Source: a virus
Strand: one strand, 5' to 3'
IMG/VR virus record: IMGVR_UViG_3300006810_000251
Location: 1 to 29,863 of that record
Length of the DNA stretch: 29,863 nt
In this document: piece by piece, positions 5,702 through 29,863 of the stretch
How positions within the stretch are numbered: the first letter of the stretch is position 1
How the letters are laid out: every line of letters begins with the position of its first letter
Notes under the pieces: generated by a model
The model's database searches: none
The model's input: only the letters and a program-made list of their open reading frames with translations
Told to the model about the DNA's origin: nothing
Position numbers and translations under genes: made by a program

Positions 5702-7393
5702 TCAGACTCCGAAGGGGGAGGGGAAGGGAAGGGCAGCAGGTGGGGCGCCGTCCACGGGCGCCTCCTCGAGGGGCGGAGCTGGTGGAGGCGGGGGAGCCTC
5801 GGCCAGCGCCATGGGGAGGTCATAGGTGCGGACCAGTTCGTCCCGGACCTGGGCCGGGTCTGCGCCCAGCTGGATGAGGAGCGGCGCCAGGCGCTCGAGG
5901 GACTGGCGCTTGATGTCGTCGGACATCGGCGTGGACCCAGCGTCCTGCGCCCAGTACCCGAAATCCCCGGTGAGGTCATCAGCGGACAGCATGGTGGGGC
6001 CTACGGGGTTGGGCAGGGCCAGGGGCTCCGCCTCGTCTCCCAGCATGATAGCCAGCATGATGTTGAACGTACGGGCCACGGCTGTGACCACCTCGTCCCG
6101 GGACCTGGCCATCCGGCCCACTTCGCTGGACGTGTAGTCCGCCAGCAGGCGCTGTTCTGTGGCCGTGGTGTTGGTGACCTCGCCTCTGGTGAACGGGGCC
6201 ATCAGACCGGCGTCGTTGATGTCCGCTGTGACCGTCTGCGCGTACAGGGGAATGTCCGCTGGGATGGGCGCGTTGGGGACGGGCAGGATGTTCCCCTCCA
6301 GGGCGGCGCCTGGTGGCAAGTCCACTTCGATGAACTCCCCGTCCCGGCCCTCGGCCACCTTGGCCGCTGCCGTGTCGTCGAAGAACCCAGCGCGGACCAT
6401 CCACTGGCGGGCCATGCGCCGGACGCCCCGGGACTGGTACGTCCGCAGGATGTTCAGCTCCTCGAACTGGTCGTAGCTCCGGTCCAGGAGGGAGTACCCA
6501 CGCAGCGGCGTGTCCGGGTCCCGGGACAGGTACAGCGGGATGATGGGGACCACAGGCCGGCCGGACGCCGTCTTGAAGGGGATGCCCGTGGTCACGTGCT
6601 CCACCTCGAAGTCCTCCGGGGACTCCTCGTCTGGGTCTGGCGGCAGTGCGCCCACCTGGACCCGGATGCCTTCAAACAGGAACTCCTGTCCGTTGGCGTA
6701 GTCCTCGGACCAGACCAGCAGGTGGTCTTCCTGGAGGTCGTACACCTCGAAGACCCGTACCCACTTGTCCGTCTCGTCCACGCCTGTGTCCCGTGTCATG
6801 GCGGACTGGCCGGCCTGGCCGGTCTGGTCAATCCACTTCACGTAGGGCCTGGCGCGGAGCTGGTCCGCGGAGACGGCGTACCGCTCCAGGGCCTCGTCCT
6901 CTGGCATCAGGTAGACGTGGCCCACGTACCGCTGGGCGCTCCAGCTCCCTGCGGTCACGTCCAGGACCACCTCCCAGGGAGCCAGGGCGGAGGAGCTGAC
7001 GCGCTTGAGCGGGTCCACGCTTTCCACTGGGGCCATCTTGATGAAGCTGCACGGGTAGATAAGGGCCAGCCGCGTGGCGTCCTCGAGCTGTTCCCGGATG
7101 GTCAGCAGGTACTGGTTGGACGTGGCCTCCGCCACCTCCGGGTTCCCGCGGGCGCGGAGGTCCGGCGTGACCACCACGGCCGGGTTCCGTGCAAACAGGC
7201 TGCCCAGGTAGGACTCCACGACGGCGTACGCCTTGGGGACCTGGGTACGTCCGCTCCGGTCCAAAAGGCCTTCCTTCTCTGCCCAGAAGTCCGTCATGTA
7301 CAGGCGCTTCAAGTCCTGCATCCGACGGCGCTGGCCGGTCCAGTAGGCGTCATGGGCCTGGAGGATGTCCTGGACGTGGGACGGCTCGAGCAT
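5702..7393 (-). CDS. Portal protein
   Basis: A 563-residue protein from ATG 7393 (MLEPSHVQDILQAHDAYWTG) with AAGGAG eight bases upstream, overlapping the terminase stop region. Features typical of podovirus portals include an N-terminal helix followed by RRMQDLKRLYMTDFWAEKEG, then PKAYAVVESYLGSLFARNP. Later come ...LALIYPCSFIKMAPV, a wing region with repeated beta strands, and the stem/crown helices near LDRSYDQFEELNILRTYQ. The C-terminal ~80 residues are Pro/Ala-rich. It forms the dodecameric DNA gate at the capsid vertex and docks the terminase motor. Position directly after the large terminase supports it. Confidence 0.85.
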   Translation of the reverse strand: MLEPSHVQDILQAHDAYWTGQRRRMQDLKRLYMTDFWAEKEGLLDRSGRTQVPKAYAVVESYLGSLFARNPAVVVTPDLRARGNPEVAEATSNQYLLTIREQLEDATRLALIYPCSFIKMAPVESVDPLKRVSSSALAPWEVVLDVTAGSWSAQRYVGHVYLMPEDEALERYAVSADQLRARPYVKWIDQTGQAGQSAMTRDTGVDETDKWVRVFEVYDLQEDHLLVWSEDYANGQEFLFEGIRVQVGALPPDPDEESPEDFEVEHVTTGIPFKTASGRPVVPIIPLYLSRDPDTPLRGYSLLDRSYDQFEELNILRTYQSRGVRRMARQWMVRAGFFDDTAAAKVAEGRDGEFIEVDLPPGAALEGNILPVPNAPIPADIPLYAQTVTADINDAGLMAPFTRGEVTNTTATEQRLLADYTSSEVGRMARSRDEVVTAVARTFNIMLAIMLGDEAEPLALPNPVGPTMLSADDLTGDFGYWAQDAGSTPMSDDIKRQSLERLAPLLIQLGADPAQVRDELVRTYDLPMALAEAPPPPPAPPLEEAPVDGAPPAALPFPSPFGV

Positions 7394-7405: not shown

Positions 7406-9007
7406 TTAGAACGGGAGGCGGGAGGCCCTGATACGGCGGGCGCGGGAGGCGGTCAACAGCTTGTCCACGCGGACCCCCTTGGCCTGGACGGCCTGGTCCC
7501 TCCAGGAGGGAGGGATGTCGCGGAGACAACGGTAGGCCAGTGCGAGGGCCACCGCGGCGTCATCATACCCCCCGGCCGGTGCTTCTGGGGCCACCTTACC
7601 CGTTGATATCGTTAGGGAACGTAGCTCCAGCCAGGTCACGCGGTCCAGTATCTGGATGACGCCCAGGGCCTCCCGGAGCGTATCGAACGCGTCCAGCTTC
7701 GACTGGAGCGTGGTCACCCACGGCTTGCCCGTGGTCGGATGGCGCCACTGGTTCCGGTACCGCGTGTACCCCAGCTCCAGCAGGAAGGCGTGGCCGTGGT
7801 TGTTGGACTCGGCCAGGACCAGGGCGTGGTTGTACCGGGTCGCCACCTGGACGGCCCGGTGTGCCCACTGCGCTGGGGTCACCCGGTTGGACCTCTCCAC
7901 GTAGACAGGCTGGCGAGTGGCCACGGACACCACGGACAGGGCGCTGTAGTCCCCACCCACTCCTCCGCCGATGTCCACGCCCATCACGTAGAGGTCATGG
8001 GCGTGGGGCGCCTCAATCTCCCGGCCCCCATGCTTCCCCAGGGCCTGGTGTTCCACCACAGTGATGTCCTGCATTGTGGCGTCGTCGTAGTACCCGCCCT
8101 CCCGACCCAGGAAGCAATCGTCCAGGCACGCCGGGTACTCCCGCGCGAACTTGTGACGGCTGCCCAGCTGGCCCAGCTTCCGGCGCCTCCAGTGGAGCTG
8201 GCCACGGTCCAGGGCGTACCGCTCCTCCAGCGCCAGCTCCTCCTCCGTCAGCTCGAAGTCCTCCGGGACCATCTCCGGCGGGTCCCGGTACGCTGGGTGT
8301 TCCCACCACCACATGGTGAGGAGGTGCCAGCCGTTCTCCGGGGCGCCCTGGACCATGCGCGCAAAGTGGTCCCCGGGGGAGTTGGCTGTGGACTCTGCAA
8401 TCAACACGCCCTCCCCCACTGCCGCGTCTGCCTGGGCCAGGACCTCCTCCAAGTCTGGAGCGTACGCCGCCTCCGACACCAGGACGGCCGCTGGAGTAAA
8501 TGACCGGAGGCCAGTCTGGCTCCTCGAGGTGAAGGCCTGGAGGCTGGCGCCCGTGTCCCCGTACACGATGCGGTTCCGGGCCTGGGTCTTGATGGGCCGG
8601 CGGAGGAGCTGGGGCGGGTCCCGGAGCCAGCGGCGGCAGTCGTCCAGGAGCATGGACGCGGAGTCATCCCGCATGGAAACAACGGCGTGCATGGCCGCAT
8701 GGCGGGAGGTGTACGCCATGTGATGCAGTACGAACTTGGCCCCCGTCGTGGCCGCCACCTGGCGGGCCTTGATGACGGCTATCCGCGTGTGTCCAGCCTC
8801 CACCGCCTCGAAGATGCGGCGCTGCATCGGGAGGGGGTCGAAGGGGATGGGGCGCTTGGAGTCCTTGTCCTGGACGTGGTGGAGCTTGCAGAACACCGAA
8901 GGCGTGGCCACCAGCTTCCCCACGTCCTCCACCAGCTCCCTGGGGATGGTGCGCGGCAGGTACGGCCGGTTCACTGGAACAGGCCGGCCTGGCCATACCG
9001 GCCACAC
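7406..9007 (-). CDS. terL: Terminase large subunit
   Basis: A 533-residue packaging ATPase-nuclease from GTG 9007; no clear Shine-Dalgarno is visible, and the in-frame GTG at VNRPYLPR (residue 12) is an alternative start. Walker A-like IKARQVAATT lies at about 79-88, a Walker B-like AVLVSEAAY at 174-182, and the coupling motif LIAESTANS at 202-210. The RNase H-like nuclease domain supplies D345 in YVMGVDIGGG, E400 in LVLAESNNHG, and D482/D483 in AGGYDDAAV. Walker B has Ser before Glu instead of the usual Asp-Glu, a small oddity. It cuts concatemeric DNA and pumps it through the portal. Confidence 0.9.
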   Translation of the reverse strand: MWPVWPGRPVPVNRPYLPRTIPRELVEDVGKLVATPSVFCKLHHVQDKDSKRPIPFDPLPMQRRIFEAVEAGHTRIAVIKARQVAATTGAKFVLHHMAYTSRHAAMHAVVSMRDDSASMLLDDCRRWLRDPPQLLRRPIKTQARNRIVYGDTGASLQAFTSRSQTGLRSFTPAAVLVSEAAYAPDLEEVLAQADAAVGEGVLIAESTANSPGDHFARMVQGAPENGWHLLTMWWWEHPAYRDPPEMVPEDFELTEEELALEERYALDRGQLHWRRRKLGQLGSRHKFAREYPACLDDCFLGREGGYYDDATMQDITVVEHQALGKHGGREIEAPHAHDLYVMGVDIGGGVGGDYSALSVVSVATRQPVYVERSNRVTPAQWAHRAVQVATRYNHALVLAESNNHGHAFLLELGYTRYRNQWRHPTTGKPWVTTLQSKLDAFDTLREALGVIQILDRVTWLELRSLTISTGKVAPEAPAGGYDDAAVALALAYRCLRDIPPSWRDQAVQAKGVRVDKLLTASRARRIRASRLPF

Positions 9008-9038: not shown

Positions 9039-9404
9039 TCAGCTCACCAGTGTGAGCAGGTCCCGCAGCTCGGCCACGCCAGCGTCATCTGGCTGGACGG
9101 TCGCGTCCTCCACCTCCATGCCGGCCTCGAGCACGAACCGGGCAGCCAGGAGCTGGGTCTGCTTCCCCGTCCCTCGAAGGCAGGACGCCACGGCCTGGAT
9201 GGCCTCCGGGGTCAGCCTGTCCAGTTCCTGGCGGATGTCGAGGCGGGGGGGGGTCATCGTGGCGCGGTACTCCTCCCGGAGCGCTTGCACGTCCCAGCGC
9301 CTGGCGCTCTTGAGGGAACACAGCCCCCGTTCTACACAATCGTCAATGGTGCTGCCCAGCTCAAGGGCTTCACAGACGCGCAGCTGCGTCAATGACAGTG
9401 CCAT
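9039..9404 (-). CDS. terS: Probable terminase small subunit
   Basis: A 121-residue protein from ATG 9404 (MALSLTQLRVCEALELGSTI) with GGAAGG about eight bases upstream. The N-terminal ~50 residues look like a helix-turn-helix (ALELGSTIDDCVERGLCSLKSARRW). The middle and C-terminus are helical (TPEAIQAVASCLRGTGKQTQ, then LLAARFVLEAGMEVED), as in small terminases with an N-terminal DNA-binding part and a ring-forming core. It lies immediately upstream of terL. It would recognise the packaging site; the phased TGTCC array at 9410-9453 sits directly before its start codon. Identification rests on synteny and architecture. Confidence 0.65.
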   Translation of the reverse strand: MALSLTQLRVCEALELGSTIDDCVERGLCSLKSARRWDVQALREEYRATMTPPRLDIRQELDRLTPEAIQAVASCLRGTGKQTQLLAARFVLEAGMEVEDATVQPDDAGVAELRDLLTLVS

Positions 9405-9409
9405 GGGGA

Positions 9410-9453
9410 TGTCCTTCCCTGTCCCATTCTGTCCTGTGGTGTCCAAGCTGTCC
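9410..9453 (-). repeat. Five TGTCC/GGACA direct repeats at 10-base spacing
   Basis: TGTCC occurs on the plus strand at 9410, 9420, 9430, 9440 and 9449, so four of the five intervals are ten or nine bases and each copy lies on the same face of the helix. They fill the non-coding stretch directly upstream of the terS ATG (9404) and overlap its ribosome-binding site. TGTCC is a fairly common pentamer here, but five phased copies in 44 bases outside a gene stand out. They may be binding sites for the small terminase ring (a pac-like site) or for a transcription factor. Confidence 0.55.
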
Positions 9454-9484
9454 GGGGTGCAGGACTCTCACCGTAGCACGACGA

Positions 9485-9516
9485 AGGCCCCACCCAGCGG
9501 AAGCTAGGTGAGGCCT
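9485..9516 (-). terminator. Strong hairpin between methyltransferase and terS
   Basis: In leftward RNA, AGGCCTCACCTAGC pairs with GCTGGGTGGGGCCT around a four-base UUCC loop, giving a 14-bp stem with two U-G wobbles. It is followed by UUCGUCGUGC rather than a U run. It lies between the methyltransferase stop and terS, and could end or attenuate the methyltransferase transcript before the packaging/head genes. With the repeats at 9410-9453 it makes up the structured part of the 9405-9569 gap, which has no ORF. Confidence 0.5.
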
Positions 9517-9569
9517 GAGTACCCGGAGAGGGCGCCCCGTCTGGACGCCACGATACCCGCGGCAGCCTA

Positions 9570-10583
9570 TCACGTACCCGCCACCTCCATCAGGCGCTCA
9601 CCCACCACACAGGCCAGGGTAGGCGGAACAGCATTGCCCACGCACCGATAGCGGGCCGTCTTGGTGCGCGCTGCTTTCCATGGATGGTCTGCTGGGAAGT
9701 CCTGCAATCTCGCGCACTCCTCGACCGTTAGCCGGCGCCGTCCGGTGGCCATGGCGAGCGCATCACTGGCCCGGTCTGGACCACCTCGAAAAGTCCAGCC
9801 GCTTGCGGCGCTGGCTCGCGTGCCCTTCACCTCCTGCGCTGTGACTGTTGGCGCTGGCCTCAGAAGGTAGGCCGTCCCCTTGGTGCCAATGGTGGGCGCG
9901 GACTCGCTCACATGCCGGGGCATACCTGCGCCTGTCTCGCCTGCTGCTACCAGGCGGCCAGACGATAGCCCCAGCGCCTCACCCATGGACACCCATGGCC
10001 TGGTGAACATTCCAGGTCCATGGGTCCGCGCTGGTGGGGTCAGTGGCGCCGGGCCTGCCCACACGATGACCCGGCGCCGATGCTGTGGGACTCCGAAGTC
10101 CGCAGCGTCCAGCAACCACCAACCCACATGCGCGAACCGGGCGCGCAGGTCACCCATGATGGTGGCGCCGAAGTAGCACCTGGGGCACCTGTCAGGCTCT
10201 GGGTGCGGCTGCGGACAGATGCCCGTATGCGACAGCAGGCCCCGGACGTTCTCACCCATGAACCATGCAGGCTGGAACCGGTCAATGGCGTCCACGGTCC
10301 ACGGCCAGCCGTTCCGCTTGTCCTGGGCGCCCATCCGCAACCCGGCGGAGCTGAAAGGCTGACACGGCCAGCTGGACCACAGCAGGTCACACGATGGCCC
10401 CGCCACGCTCTGGATGGCGTCCAGATCTCGCACGTCCGCCTCCACCACAGGACCCAGGCCCGCAGCGCGCAACACGGCGCAGGCGTCCGGGTCCCTCTCC
10501 ACCAGTGCGAGGTGGTGAACCCCCGCAGCCTCCAGGCCAAGGGCAGCGCCGCCAGCTCCGGCGAAAAGCTCAATACACCTCAT
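9570..10583 (-). CDS. C5 cytosine-specific DNA methyltransferase
   Basis: A 337-residue protein from ATG 10583 (MRCIELFAGAGGAALGLEAA). The ordered motifs are all present: I FAGAGGAALG (7-16); IV with catalytic Cys74 in SWPCQPFSSAG; VI ENVRGL (111-116); VIII QHRRRVIVWAG (167-177). After a target-recognition region (about 185-270) come RLTVEECARLQDFP and CVGNAVPP (motifs IX/X). Between VI and VIII there is a Cys-rich stretch (C123, C133, C136 in CPQPHPEPDRCPRC) that may bind zinc. Its ATG overlaps the previous stop. No restriction endonuclease is adjacent, so it is probably a solitary methylase protecting phage DNA. The target cannot be read from sequence. Confidence 0.9.
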   Translation of the reverse strand: MRCIELFAGAGGAALGLEAAGVHHLALVERDPDACAVLRAAGLGPVVEADVRDLDAIQSVAGPSCDLLWSSWPCQPFSSAGLRMGAQDKRNGWPWTVDAIDRFQPAWFMGENVRGLLSHTGICPQPHPEPDRCPRCYFGATIMGDLRARFAHVGWWLLDAADFGVPQHRRRVIVWAGPAPLTPPARTHGPGMFTRPWVSMGEALGLSSGRLVAAGETGAGMPRHVSESAPTIGTKGTAYLLRPAPTVTAQEVKGTRASAASGWTFRGGPDRASDALAMATGRRRLTVEECARLQDFPADHPWKAARTKTARYRCVGNAVPPTLACVVGERLMEVAGT

Positions 10584-11179
10584 GGAATGGTGAACCTGGG
10601 CTTCCCGACGTTCCCGCGCGTGGTGGGTGGCTCCATGGCGGGCGCCCACCTCGTCCACTCCGGCCTGGCGCCCTTGGTCCCGTCGTCCACGTACAGGGCC
10701 AGGACCCCATCGTGGAACTCACTCTTGGCCTGCTGTCTCGCCGCGATGCTCTCCACCTCTCCACGGGTCAGCCGTTGCTGGTATCGCAACTGGGCACCGT
10801 GGAGGCGCTGCCCTCTCGGGCAGCCACAGGTGACAGCGTAGGTGCGGACCGTCTCCCTGCCCTTCCTTCTGGATGCGACATAGGCCCGCAGCTCCCCGGT
10901 CCCTTCACAGTACAGGCAACCCTCCGAGGCGGCCCGGATGCGCGCGTCCCTCTCCTGTCCGGCCTCCGCCACCATTGCCAGCCACGTCTTCCGCAGCTCC
11001 GCGGGCGTCGGCCGGTAGCTCGAGGAGGCCAGCTGGCGGGCCACCAGCTCCCCCGCCCTGTCCTCCGCCCCATCCAGCAGGGCCACGATGGTGGGCCCCA
11101 GGAGTTCCCGGTATTCCCTGGGGGTACCGGACCCAGGCAACGCTGACAGCTGATGAAGAAGCCGCTTATGCCGGGTCAT
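10580..11179 (-). CDS. Hypothetical zinc-binding protein
   Basis: A 199-residue protein from ATG 11179 (MTRHKRLLHQLSALPGSGTP); its TGA overlaps the methyltransferase ATG (ATGA). The N-terminal half is helical (REYRELLGPTIVALLDG; YRPTPAELRKTWLAMVAEA). A CLYCEGTGELRAYV ... YAVTCGCPRG pattern (about 119-160) resembles the DnaJ-type CxxCxGxG knuckle plus a second CxC pair, so it likely binds one zinc. Similar knuckles occur in phage replication and helicase-loading proteins, but there is no P-loop. Its position in the immunity/early part of the leftward unit would fit a replication-associated role. That is speculation. Confidence 0.6.
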   Translation of the reverse strand: MTRHKRLLHQLSALPGSGTPREYRELLGPTIVALLDGAEDRAGELVARQLASSSYRPTPAELRKTWLAMVAEAGQERDARIRAASEGCLYCEGTGELRAYVASRRKGRETVRTYAVTCGCPRGQRLHGAQLRYQQRLTRGEVESIAARQQAKSEFHDGVLALYVDDGTKGARPEWTRWAPAMEPPTTRGNVGKPRFTIP

Positions 11180-11382
11180 GCCACCCACCTGTTCTGGAGG
11201 GGCGCCAATCGCCTCCCCGCCGAACGTCCGTGGATGGAGAGCGGCAGCGCTGCCCCGCAGGGGGCCGCATGGTGCCACCGTCGTCTAGGTCTTTTGATAG
11301 TACCCAGGTGCGTCAAGCTGGGGACGCCAAGTCCGCGGAATGACGGGGGAAGGATTACCTGGGCCAGTGGCGCGCGGGTCAC
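11176..11382 (-). CDS. Possible small ORF joining repressor and zinc protein genes
   Basis: A 68-residue frame from GTG 11382 (VTRAPLAQVILPPSFRGLG) whose start overlaps the repressor stop (GTGA) and whose stop overlaps the next ATG (ATGA). This is exactly the coupling used elsewhere in the genome. Against it, the protein is Arg/Pro-rich and low-information (KRPRRRWHH) and resembles a shadow frame. The 200-base stretch also includes an AT-rich patch near 11283-11305 that could be a promoter. I cannot decide; if it is not a gene, this is an untranslated region of about 200 bases holding regulatory signals. Confidence 0.35.
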   Translation of the reverse strand: MTRAPLAQVILPPSFRGLGVPSLTHLGTIKRPRRRWHHAAPCGAALPLSIHGRSAGRRLAPLQNRWVA

Positions 11383-21600: not shown

Positions 21601-23185
21601 CGGCCAGCGCCCCCACGGGTACGTCCGGGTCCTCCCCCAGGGCGCGGGAGACAGCGCGCGCCACCTCGTCCGCGCTCCGCCCTTCCGTGGCTCGGACAGC
21701 CTCGAGGGCGGCGCCTGTGGCCTCCTCCCCCAGGGCGATGGACTCCTTCCGCACCACCTGTTCCGCCACGCGCTTGACCAGGCGCGCGTCTGCCTGTGGC
21801 GTCTTCGACACAGCGGCAGCCACGTCCGCCAGGACGTTGATGGGGCGCACGTCCACGGAGTCCGCAAACCGCAGGAGGTTCTGGGTGGGTGACAGGACCG
21901 GAGCGTACTTCCCCAGGAACGTGCCCAGGCGCTGGGATGCGCGGGCGGCCGTCCCAGGTCCTGCCGGGATGGGGAGGGACGCCAAGGTCCCGGCCCACCA
22001 CGCCGCGTCCTCGTCCCCGTACACCCGGGCGTACTCGTCCCGGAGGGCGGGGACGCTGCGGAACTCGTCACCCAGGCCGCGGCCCACTGTGACGTTCCTG
22101 GCCAGTCTCCGCAGCGTCTCCGGGTCCCCGGAGGCCAGCCGCCTCTCCTCTGGGTCCATTGCGCTGGGGGCCGTCCGTAGTGGTCCCTCCTCTGGGGTGG
22201 GCTCCGTGCGGACTGTGGCCACGCCGGGGAGCGGGATGAATGCCCCCAGGCCCGCGGCCTCCATCTGGGCGCCGATGGCCCGCCGCGCGGCTGGAGTCCT
22301 GGACATAGCGCTGGCCAAGTCGTCCCCGCTGATTGTCTCCGGGAGGCCCAGGCCCCGGCGGACCTCCGCCACCTTGGCGCCGAACTCCTCCGGGTCGATG
22401 GGCTCGCCTGTGGTCGGGTCCGCGTCGTACCCCAGGAGGCCGAAGTACACTTCACTGGCCACGTTCTCCAGGGTGCCCAGGCCTCCGCGCAGGACAGCGC
22501 CCAGCGGCGTCTCCACCACAGCGCCAGTCCCAGCGGGGCGGCTGAGGACACCAGACACGGCCGCCTCCGGCTCCTCGAACTCCGGGACAGGCTGGCCAGC
22601 CGCGCGGGCCTCTGCGATGGCCTGCCGTTGGCGGGCCAGCTCCTCCCCACGCCTGCGGGCCTGGTCCTCTGTCAGGACTGGCTGCTGGGCCAGGGCCTCC
22701 ACGGCCTCCTCCGCCGCTGTGGGCGGGCGCAGTTCTCCCGTGCCTGGGTCCCGGTACTGGCGCTCCACTCGGACAGGCTCCGCCAGCGGGGCCTGATAGA
22801 CGGGGACCTGCTCAATGCGGGAGGGCCGGAAGAACGGCGCCACAAACGGGGGTGCGGCCAGCTGGGGGCGCTCGCCTATCTGGCGCGTGAACTCCAGGGC
22901 CTCCAGTCGGCGCTTCCGCTCCTCCTCGAGGTTCTGGCGGTACGTGGCCTGGGCGGCCTCTGCGCGCTGGCCTGCTGGCGTCGCAAAGTCCGGGAAGGCC
23001 TGGGCGGTCCGCTCCTGGGCGGCCGTCCTGGCCTCGAGCTCGAAGCGGGCGCGGCGCTGCCTGTCCCCCTCAAACTCGGGGAAGGGCGTGGCCGCCCTGG
23101 GGGCGGGAGCCTGCTGGCGGGCCTCTGCCCTGCGGGCCAGTTCCCGGCGGGCCAGTTCCCGGCGGGCCTCGTCTGGAGTGGTCAC
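18668..23185 (-). CDS. Giant internal virion / DNA-ejection-type protein
   Basis: A 1505-residue protein from GTG 23185 (VTTPDEARRELARR), overlapping the previous stop (GTGA). The N-terminal third is Ala/Arg/Glu/Pro-rich and helical, the middle is alpha-helical, and the last ~400 residues contain more hydrophobic helices (NLPLVLGRLVGAPVLSVATI; PLDVALTVTGAANYVAANLV). Size, helical content, and position as the last of three such genes match T7 gp16-like internal core proteins that form the trans-envelope channel. I see no lysozyme or transglycosylase motif, unlike T7 gp16. Long plus-strand frames overlapping it are compositional shadows. Confidence 0.65.
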   Translation of the reverse strand: MTTPDEARRELARRELARRAEARQQAPAPRAATPFPEFEGDRQRRARFELEARTAAQERTAQAFPDFATPAGQRAEAAQATYRQNLEEERKRRLEALEFTRQIGERPQLAAPPFVAPFFRPSRIEQVPVYQAPLAEPVRVERQYRDPGTGELRPPTAAEEAVEALAQQPVLTEDQARRRGEELARQRQAIAEARAAGQPVPEFEEPEAAVSGVLSRPAGTGAVVETPLGAVLRGGLGTLENVASEVYFGLLGYDADPTTGEPIDPEEFGAKVAEVRRGLGLPETISGDDLASAMSRTPAARRAIGAQMEAAGLGAFIPLPGVATVRTEPTPEEGPLRTAPSAMDPEERRLASGDPETLRRLARNVTVGRGLGDEFRSVPALRDEYARVYGDEDAAWWAGTLASLPIPAGPGTAARASQRLGTFLGKYAPVLSPTQNLLRFADSVDVRPINVLADVAAAVSKTPQADARLVKRVAEQVVRKESIALGEEATGAALEAVRATEGRSADEVARAVSRALGEDPDVPVGALAESAPTFLRVQEAIVRNTPGDFVMVTDSVAAPRKLAPGIRKAAQAEVARVVERDAPAIAGELRRLQAAVEDPALAADLGRAADRLAAQVAADGLQATTATARGKATRSLVERAARELGEDPRTAGQLFTRSTPDEVARKWASRGTDTPVGRLRGVNSWDEVDPQTLRLALEEVRSLAALRAAPDVATATRRLSDLQTYVARADNPRLMDGMVGRRLRAMRGQAGQRAPLSVERARKNIQATAAQAFRTTGKVLDELAEEYGSVDKALDQMTELGSGGESAESVWRRTLSYLYSGNQDSLWEAVSPLLKGSEELPTVQRLLDLDRQLVASQVVKGWDSSTSSSFIGATIRKENAQMALLKNFLEETVRKSLAAQGREAEAVAQGLLRAEDEATALARNVAPPGLPLAPRTEAFGDVARQYDAAASDFENVLAQHGEDFAALVDAVPVRQRAGWTQMSGDLFRSGVAAARNAVFGLRYGYAIPNLPLVLGRLVGAPVLSVATIGLENTARTLGQLGRRLDPRQWANRRYGGILRAPDGTVYTPDDIQDLVDQYGLGATALDTERVGSLANDLLVSARRSAEEAGLGARFRRALDVANPATRSLGARMAEAIELTYRRGVFEAGLAGGESPEVAADLARRSLLDFSQVPDAVSAELGQYVATAAQHYQLLSEMVAKVAENPGAVRSIMRAHVKRAQAEDPYGLAGDDEVRATIRFEDDGRVFYGPANPLFAPLDVALTVTGAANYVAANLVEGFQRGWGDGSQYLGERIGRTGAQTAEDMTEKLFTLLDILGGLDEAGNYDPGQVDMAELSDDQMFYATLLTADALDPDRTAGWYDGVHSLLAPEYVDPPEGLALQVPNEDTGELENHPRQWAQQPPEGVPYIKAKGGESTDGADGFYVIKPSATGLRNVQALRSITPEMAERGLRLGAALLPSQRVFADAILPRGAAGAATAALPLEVGPGERMREAKAVESLAEGAARE
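23134..23163 (-). repeat. 15-base tandem duplication in the 5' end of the giant gene
   Basis: The 15-base unit GGGCCAGTTCCCGGC (plus strand) occurs twice in direct succession, giving ARRELARRELARR near the N-terminus of the giant protein. It keeps the reading frame and probably arose by slippage; copy number may vary between strains. Confidence 0.6.
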
Positions 23186-28016: not shown

Positions 28017-29863
28017 CCGCGCTTTCCTGCGATGGTGGAGGTTCCTGGCGTCCGGTACTCCACTTCCCAGCCCACCACCAGCAGGTCATCCGTGGTGGAT
28101 ACCTCGAGCGCGAACCACGCACAGGATTGCTGGGCCACGCCGATACGGAGCGGGACCAGCTGGGTGTCCTCCCAGACTGCGGAGCCGATGGTGGCGGAGT
28201 CGAACACGGGGAGGTTCTGGGCGTCGGGAGGCTGGGCCAGGTAGGGGCGGCAGGTCAGGCCCTCCCGCTGGAAGTCCTTGTAGGCCTCCGCGGTGATGTT
28301 GACGGAACCCGTAGTCATGGCCCACAGCGTGGCGTACTGGACGCGCTTCTGGAGCTGGGCGTCCCCCAGGTCCAGCCAGGCCGTCTTCATGATGCTGGTG
28401 GGCGGTCCGTTCTCCACGTAGGCGTCCTCCACGATGGCCCCGCCCATGGTCCGGCGGGAGCTGATGACGAACAGGCCCGCCGGGTCATTGTTCCCCGGCG
28501 TGGTGCCCGTGTTGTGGCCGAAGACCAGCGCCCCGTTGTGGAGGCGGTCCAGGGACCCCACGGGGAAGCCGGTACGCATGGACCAGCCTTCTTTCTCCGT
28601 GTGGAACACCACGCCCAGGTTCGGGCGGTCGTTCCCGTCCACTGGGATGTAACAGTGGTAGGCCCGGTCCATCGGGGAGTACCGGCCCACCGCCCTGGCC
28701 GCACAGTCCGGGGTGAGGCGGCGAAGCGTCCGTTTGATGGGCTCAGACAGGCGTAGCACCTGCATCTCTGAGCCACCATCGAACCCGCCCTGGAGCGCGT
28801 ACACGCCGTCCTGGGCCAGGAAGACCACACCCAGCCCAGGGACCTGGTCAACCGTGTGGGGGGAGCGGCAGGCCACCTGGGACGTGACCGTGGTGGCCTG
28901 GAACCCGCTGGCGTAGTCGCCAGACACCACGTCCACGCCGTTCTCCCGCAGGACCACGAGGACCCGGTAGTGGGCGAACAGGCGCACCACAGCGCCACCC
29001 GGGGCGGACAGGCGGATGTAATCCGCGCCTCCGAACTGGTCAGGCAGTCCCGGCTTGGAGAAGTACAGCGTGTTCGCGTCCGCGGGGCCACCATCCAGGA
29101 ACAGGCAGTCCTGGTAGACGGCTGCCGTCCCAGCTCGAGGAGACGGCAGGGGGACGGAGTCCGTAATGGGCGGAGCCAGCGCACCCACGGCCGTGGACCT
29201 GTACGGGTCGAACCACAGCGCATCGGTGTTGTTGCGGATGGTGTCCAGCAGGTACAGGTCCGTGTCTGCGTACGTCGGACTGTCTGGGCTTACGTTCTGG
29301 GTCCGGTAGACCCGGCGGGCCACGGTCCCCTCTGGTCCGGTCGGCAGCTCCATGGCCACGCAGTACCGGAACCCCTCCGTGTTCTTCTCGAGCTGCCAGG
29401 ACACCTCCGCCACGTCCGATAGCGGGGACTCGCTCCCGTTCCCCAGCAGGAAGGACACGCGGTAGCGGAACTGGGCAGCGTTGCCGGCCACCGTTGCGGA
29501 GGGGGCGGTAGCAAAGCCCAGGCCGTACGCCTTGGGGCGGCTGATGGCTCCAGGCTGGTCTGGCCACCACAGTGTCACACTGTCACCCGTGACCGTGTTG
29601 GCGGAAGCTGGGCCGGCGCCGGTCGTGCTGGTGATGGTCTGCACGTCCAGCAGGCCGGGAGCGGCTGCCTGGGCCGCCCAGCCCAGGGGGCGGAGGACAC
29701 CAACACCCACAGCCACGGCCGCGTGGGTGGCGTCAGGCAGGGGCCACGGGCGCACCACCACGGGAGTGTCCCGCCCATTGGTGACCCGGACGCCGTCCGC
29801 CCATGCTGTGTACTGGCTGGGGGCCTCACCGGGCGCTGGGATGGTGCGGCCGTCCTGAAGCCC
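28013..29863 (-). CDS. Tail nozzle / DNA-stabilisation-like protein, main part (start lies beyond the window edge)
   Basis: The reading frame is open right up to the window end, so the first GTG inside (29761) is not the true start. The homologous left-end copy shows about 138 more upstream residues beginning at position 789. The visible part is rich in beta-strand-like segments and Gly/Asn/Thr. It carries a motif seen in podovirus nozzle/stabilisation proteins around 28780-28840 (VFLAQDGVYALQGG), followed by SEPIKRTLRRLTPD and a DRAYHCYIPV repeat-like strand. It would form the lower tail through which DNA leaves. Its stop overlaps the ATG of the next gene by four bases (ATGA), so translation is probably coupled. 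The exact family is not certain. Confidence 0.7.
   Translation of the reverse strand, partial: GLQDGRTIPAPGEAPSQYTAWADGVRVTNGRDTPVVVRPWPLPDATHAAVAVGVGVLRPLGWAAQAAAPGLLDVQTITSTTGAGPASANTVTGDSVTLWWPDQPGAISRPKAYGLGFATAPSATVAGNAAQFRYRVSFLLGNGSESPLSDVAEVSWQLEKNTEGFRYCVAMELPTGPEGTVARRVYRTQNVSPDSPTYADTDLYLLDTIRNNTDALWFDPYRSTAVGALAPPITDSVPLPSPRAGTAAVYQDCLFLDGGPADANTLYFSKPGLPDQFGGADYIRLSAPGGAVVRLFAHYRVLVVLRENGVDVVSGDYASGFQATTVTSQVACRSPHTVDQVPGLGVVFLAQDGVYALQGGFDGGSEMQVLRLSEPIKRTLRRLTPDCAARAVGRYSPMDRAYHCYIPVDGNDRPNLGVVFHTEKEGWSMRTGFPVGSLDRLHNGALVFGHNTGTTPGNNDPAGLFVISSRRTMGGAIVEDAYVENGPPTSIMKTAWLDLGDAQLQKRVQYATLWAMTTGSVNITAEAYKDFQREGLTCRPYLAQPPDAQNLPVFDSATIGSAVWEDTQLVPLRIGVAQQSCAWFALEVSTTDDLLVVGWEVEYRTPGTSTIAGKRG
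29384..29863. repeat. Right copy of imperfect terminal direct repeat
   Basis: This is the partner of the repeat at 1-477, at about 94 % identity, ending with the same ten or more bases before the window stops. Nonsynonymous differences include LAD to WAD and GVLV to GVRV. It most likely represents a second strain variant of the same locus rather than a real gene duplication. Confidence 0.85.

Follow-up and report, generated by a model that had tools for sequence, protein, structure and literature searches.

Five GGACA words, one helical turn apart, directly precede the candidate small terminase gene (terS) of an uncultivated virus. The array is real and non-random, and comparison of related leaders indicates that its spacing is conserved. 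The reader of the array is most likely TerS. We give a slightly better than even chance to the fuller proposal that this is a TerS docking array with pac or cosB and autoregulatory roles.

A phased pentamer array in the terS leader

We analysed an uncultivated virus record of 29,863 bases and 69% G+C (hereafter the window). It is classed as a virus record and carries no note of end repeats; separately, CACACTGT tandem repeats were seen close to both record ends (182–204 and 29568–29586). The features considered are as follows.

5702–7393, minus strand: portal protein (phrog_156, 2.2e-10)
7406–9007, minus strand: terL, large terminase (phrog_2, 2.7e-27)
9039–9404, minus strand: terS, small terminase candidate of 121 aa (synteny, profile matches and model)
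9410–9453, minus strand: phased array of five GGACA units (TGTCC on the plus strand), with spacings of 9, 10, 10 and 10 towards terS
9412–9416, minus strand: AAGGA, putative Shine–Dalgarno sequence predicted from sequence, overlapping the last array unit
9454–9463, minus strand: conserved CCTGCACCCC element, between the -10-like element and the array
9470–9478, minus strand: TGCTACGGT, putative extended -10 element (sequence comparison)
9472–9574, minus strand: conserved non-coding block of about 100 bp, strongly folding (z -3.0)
9485–9516, minus strand: 14-bp hairpin AGGCCTCACCTAGC-TTCC-GCTGGGTGGGGCCT within the block, possible terminator of the upstream gene
9570–10658, minus strand: C5 cytosine DNA methyltransferase, in an exchangeable cargo slot upstream of the block
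10580–11278, minus strand: gene X, a conserved gene that relatives also have upstream of the terS region (no family match)

On the plus strand TGTCC occurs at 9410, 9420, 9430, 9440 and 9449 (spacings of 10, 10, 10 and 9), exactly where a sequence-only reading of this DNA had placed five copies one turn apart. On the coding strand of terS the array is thus GGACA repeated five times within the 5′ leader, 5 bp before the start codon, and it adjoins terS of a terS–terL module. In array order the minus strand reads GGACAGCTT-GGACACCACA-GGACAGAATG-GGACAGGGAA-GGACATCCCC-ATG; the pentamer alone recurs and the spacers are mutually unrelated. AAGGA in the last unit, seven bases before the ATG, is probably the ribosome-binding site of terS.

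Towards terS the order is gene X, the methyltransferase, the ~100-bp block, TGCTACGGT, CCTGCACCCC, the array and the ATG. The CCTGCACCCC element is common to the leaders of the window, L008, L025, L009, L011 and L010. At the position of TGCTACGGT, relatives carry TACGTT, TACGCT, TACCTT, TACACT or TAACAT, and so share its TAnnnT form. We saw no -35 with TGCTACGGT and a generic promoter scan matched no site there; comparison across relatives makes it a likely extended -10 element. Since the array lies between this -10-like element and the ATG, it would fall within the initially transcribed leader.

Chance, word abundance and coding sequence do not account for the array

Five identical pentamers of any kind, chained at 9–11 bp, did not arise in any of 450 simulated windows (150 each at Markov orders 1, 2 and 4), which bears out the earlier view that the phasing is unusual. 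When any period from 6 to 30 was allowed, 5-chains appeared in 1 of 100 simulated windows; the sole other 5-chain observed in the window was a GCGGG coding repeat near 23,150. No second such array was found elsewhere in the window. In four sequences (the window, L008, L006 and L007), no other stretch of the contig or locus scored as high for lag-10/11 repeats as the terS leader. The accompanying remark that the pentamer is common in this genome holds against dinucleotide shuffles (146 copies against 87) and does not hold against an order-3 expectation of 140 (z 0.5), by which TGTCC is not enriched. The simulated windows and the order-3 expectation together rule out chance and word abundance as the origin of the array.

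An ORF caller would lengthen terS to TTG 9446. Because the 10-bp unit differences of relatives break the TTG 9446 frame and alignments start at ATG 9404, we take ATG 9404 as the true start and the leader as non-coding, as had been supposed. A coding repeat is likewise ruled out, since copy changes in 10-bp units break any frame.

Spacing is conserved among relatives

Relatives were gathered by scans with TerS, TerL and their alignments, which returned eleven TerS of the window's type plus many TerL relatives with other TerS types. The best repeat lag was 10 or 11 bp in nine of ten leaders of the window's TerS subfamily (five of six lineages). In 21 leaders that adjoin related TerL genes but belong to other TerS types, lags were scattered with no preference for 10 or 11. 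The suggestion that spacing rather than sequence would be kept upstream of terS was thereby upheld across lineages.

Arrays of 10-bp period were found in L008 (five units), L025 (three to four), L009 (three) and L011 (three), so that, with the window, copy number shifts by whole units of about 10 bp (5, 5, 3–4, 3 and 3). L006 and L007 carry about six units of the form GGACATG/GTACATG at 11 bp, and L162 and L163 carry GCACC/GGACC-like words, also at 11 bp. Phasing in L025 and L162 is weak taken singly, and L014/L033, which have the window's TerS type, lack a phased array in the leader. Among the 10-bp lineages, 1 of 25 motif columns and 11 of 25 spacer columns varied, in an alignment anchored on the motif, which favours a motif-kept outcome, and with few lineages. 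L010 was not counted as evidence for a link between array and TerS: the array and the TerS HTH are both gone (2340–2610), apparently through one deletion, and no obvious start codon is left. Relatives L192, L214, L236 and L240, whose short TerS proteins have no HTH, bear the word CTGCAC upstream of terS, in one copy or several. Here, CCTGCACC is likewise kept between the -10-like element and the array.

The array type tracks TerS rather than adjoining genes

Between the window and L006, identity is 99.4% (aa) for TerL, 97% for gene X (93 residues compared) and 99% (nt) for the upstream block, but 41% for TerS. Replacement runs from the -10 element across most of terS; the two sequences match again over the final ~45 nt of the gene, which would be its TerL-facing end. 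The array differs between the two, with 10-bp GGACA in the window and 11-bp GGACATG in L006. L006 and L007 present the converse case: TerS is 95% identical and the array is the same, whereas gene X is 69% identical and the upstream sequence is unrelated. Array type therefore changes along with TerS and independently of the neighbours, in few lineages and with a possible contribution from linkage. From these two comparisons we conclude that the array follows TerS rather than the neighbouring genes. Array and terS are immediate neighbours, so crossovers on either side of the pair would transfer them together even without any interaction between them. Linkage accounts for part of the pattern; even so, any regulator that the shared backbone encodes would have been confronted with an altered array. 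The earlier idea of a pac-like TerS site is thus supported in part, by spacing conserved across lineages and by an array type that tracks TerS rather than its neighbours.

TerS and its genomic surroundings

In dozens of loci terS lies immediately upstream of TerL, and a profile of the TerS subfamily picks up the ORFs next to TerL in other relatives (local E 1e-7 to 1e-15). The predicted structure (pLDDT 75, pTM 0.42) has an N-terminal HTH (residues 5–49), a long helical hairpin (57–101) and a C-terminal helix. In a second-look alignment, residues 3–53 matched Sf6 TerS (Z 4.3) and PaP3 TerS (Z 3.7); these matches are weak and suggest the right family. TerS had no significant match among curated families (PHROG, Pfam), the best TerS family being phrog_2538 at a non-significant level (E 0.11 for two members), and no significant match by Foldseek. 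The terS region has no DNA or close protein relative among named phages, and gene X, further upstream, has no PHROG match. A host assignment from a Gemmatimonadota MAG (L165) was rejected, as the match covers TerL only and the sequence has runs of 100 N every 1.3 kb.

The ~100-bp block begins where the exchangeable upstream gene ends, at its stop codon, and occurs only before terS of the window's phage group. Its absence from L025 and L007 led us to set it aside as an obligatory cosN. The hairpin formed by AGGCCTCACCTAGC and GCTGGGTGGGGCCT has one pair altered on both sides in two sequences and others altered on one side; it is possibly the terminator of the upstream gene. An Rfam search, the block included, gave no match. 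The cargo slot between gene X and the block holds the C5 methyltransferase here, a QueC-like gene in L009 and an acetyltransferase-like gene in L006 (both by eye). Among TerL-relative loci, contigs seem to end unduly often in the stretch of about 210 bp that precedes TerL; hypervariability of TerS between strains may break assembly there.

A proposed docking array for TerS

We infer TerS as the reader of the array, the formation of a ring, a role in packaging and autoregulation. TerS, in which a predicted N-terminal HTH sits on a helical oligomerisation core, would assemble into a ring whose neighbouring HTHs read successive GGACA words one helical turn apart. The TerS-bound array would mark phage DNA for the large terminase, in a pac or cosB role, and TerS on the array may also restrain its own synthesis. 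Autoregulation is suggested by the position of the array between a promoter-like element and the start codon and by its inclusion of the ribosome-binding site; an autorepressor role of TerS, earlier raised as an alternative, is compatible with docking. The arrayless L014/L033 and the weak arrays of L025 and L162 count against TerS docking.

In SPP1, pac overlaps promoters as well as the RBS and the start of the TerS gene; the terminase there represses its own synthesis (PMC6316719). The SPP1/SF6 pac, bound by the TerS gp1, resembles the present arrangement in that repeats and the TerS contact region lie over the promoters, RBS and start of the small terminase gene (PMC6316719, PMC4737164). The SPP1 boxes were published as three sets of direct repeats, whereas here there is a one-turn pentamer array, with no sequence relation found to the SPP1/SF6 pac. 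Lambda-type cosB (R1–R3, bound by gpNu1) likewise has several TerS sites upstream of terS, and among related lambda-like phages a difference in the R sites goes with a difference in the TerS recognition helix (PMC4669245). In lambda, however, three sites, one of them inverted, span 120 bp with an IHF bend, whereas the words here are short, one turn apart and in a single orientation, and no cosN was identified.

The question of whether small terminases wrap or thread DNA has been called a major debate (PMC11331095, PMC4737164). In TerS rings, neighbouring HTHs sit roughly one turn of B-DNA from each other, suggesting wrapping (PMC4737164). Against docking, the HTHs of SF6 TerS show little sequence preference in binding pac (PMC4737164). 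In HK97, a small terminase ring recognises a site at cos, as proposed for TerS here, but it reads one short site on DNA emerging from the channel through which it is threaded, not wrapped (PMC11331095), in contrast to the present phased array; a review doubts wrapping of DNA round TerS (PMC9611059), and both points weigh against the docking proposal. A natural array with one word per turn, in 10-bp and 11-bp versions with matching TerS variants, would be a ready substrate for this debate, and it gives a sequence signature for finding packaging sites in uncultivated phages. We also advance, tentatively and as an idea more doubtful than docking itself, that the one-turn array is a ruler for the TerS ring, a nucleosome-like packaging code. 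Its period (10 or 11 bp) and letters would co-evolve with the TerS recognition helix and ring geometry, and array and TerS would move between phages as a packaging-specificity cassette.

Alternative explanations

The main rival to TerS docking is a late-regulator site. The array would then be the operator of a phage or host regulator other than TerS, of the Ltr/RinA/Alt kind or OmpR/PhoB-like, controlling the terS/late promoter through tandem direct repeats of 10–11 bp. Late regulators such as phi13 Ltr and TP901-1 Alt do bind about four direct repeats upstream of a terS-proximal late promoter, beside terS or the start of the late operon (PMC13123087). In unrelated phages, among the matches listed, -10-like sequences follow TGTCC-N5 arrays close to terS or portal, and in two cases (L267 and L279) a phrog_36 regulator is adjacent. 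The known repeats, however, lie upstream of the promoter (-107 to -42 in phi13, -76 to -32 in TP901-1; PMC13123087). Here the array is downstream of the -10-like element, itself assigned from sequence only, abuts the ATG and has the Shine–Dalgarno sequence inside it, an arrangement unsuited to an activator, so a classical late activator fits less well. The array type also differs between the window and L006 despite their near-identical gene X, and the window holds a single array of this kind. We consider such an operator unlikely.

The remaining alternatives are less probable again. We think it very unlikely that the array has no function and is a relic of tandem duplication in the RBS region, or chance: some L006/L007 units do have longer stretches in common, as after duplication, but in the window the spacers are unrelated yet the pentamer is kept, simulation excludes chance, and one-turn spacing is kept in several lineages with different letters. 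Hardly more credible, and if anything less so, is an RNA-level element in which GGA-rich leader repeats serve as extra Shine–Dalgarno-like or protein-binding sites that tune terS translation. The array does lie on the transcript downstream of the putative promoter, with the Shine–Dalgarno sequence as its last unit. However, leader RNA folds no better than shuffles (z +0.79), for which RNA structure in the leader was rejected; a spacing of one DNA turn (10 or 11) and copy changes of unit size have no obvious RNA reason, and the upstream units are too distant from the ATG for initiation. Least probable are origin or recombination iterons, that is, a replication or site-specific recombination site that happens to precede terS. 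Among the matches listed, other phages do carry GGACA-N5 arrays within or next to genes for replication initiators, primase-helicases and integrases, but no replication initiator or integrase was recognised beside the array in the window, and the array tracks the TerS lineage across relatives.

GGACA arrays in other phages

The exact pattern of four GGACA-N5 units occurs in at least 120 stretches of the viral collection. Counts of array context in other phages are exploratory and cover the matches listed, among which arrays lie near packaging genes (L273, L252, L261, L251, L296, L267, L268, L260, L279, L283 and L258), replication genes (L255, L257, L263, L298, L246, L256, L324 and L308) and integrases (L250, L319, L288, L303 and L248). 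Given the arrays near replication and integrase genes of unrelated phages, an array by itself is not a packaging signal. Near terminase or portal genes several of the matches listed read TGTCC, followed 20–40 bp on by a -10-like sequence; this resemblance to late-regulator repeats (PMC13123087) raises the regulator rival. In a control across 395 genomes, the reversed pattern was found in 3 genomes against 9, tandem repeats included. Among the matches listed, phased GGACA-N5 arrays of 4–10 units, often with unrelated spacers, were seen in dozens of unrelated viral contigs (for example, L267:2163–2260, L273:3449–3503 and L255:3744–3838), and in one group a Prim-Pol/AAA_25 gene contains inverted arrays in pairs.
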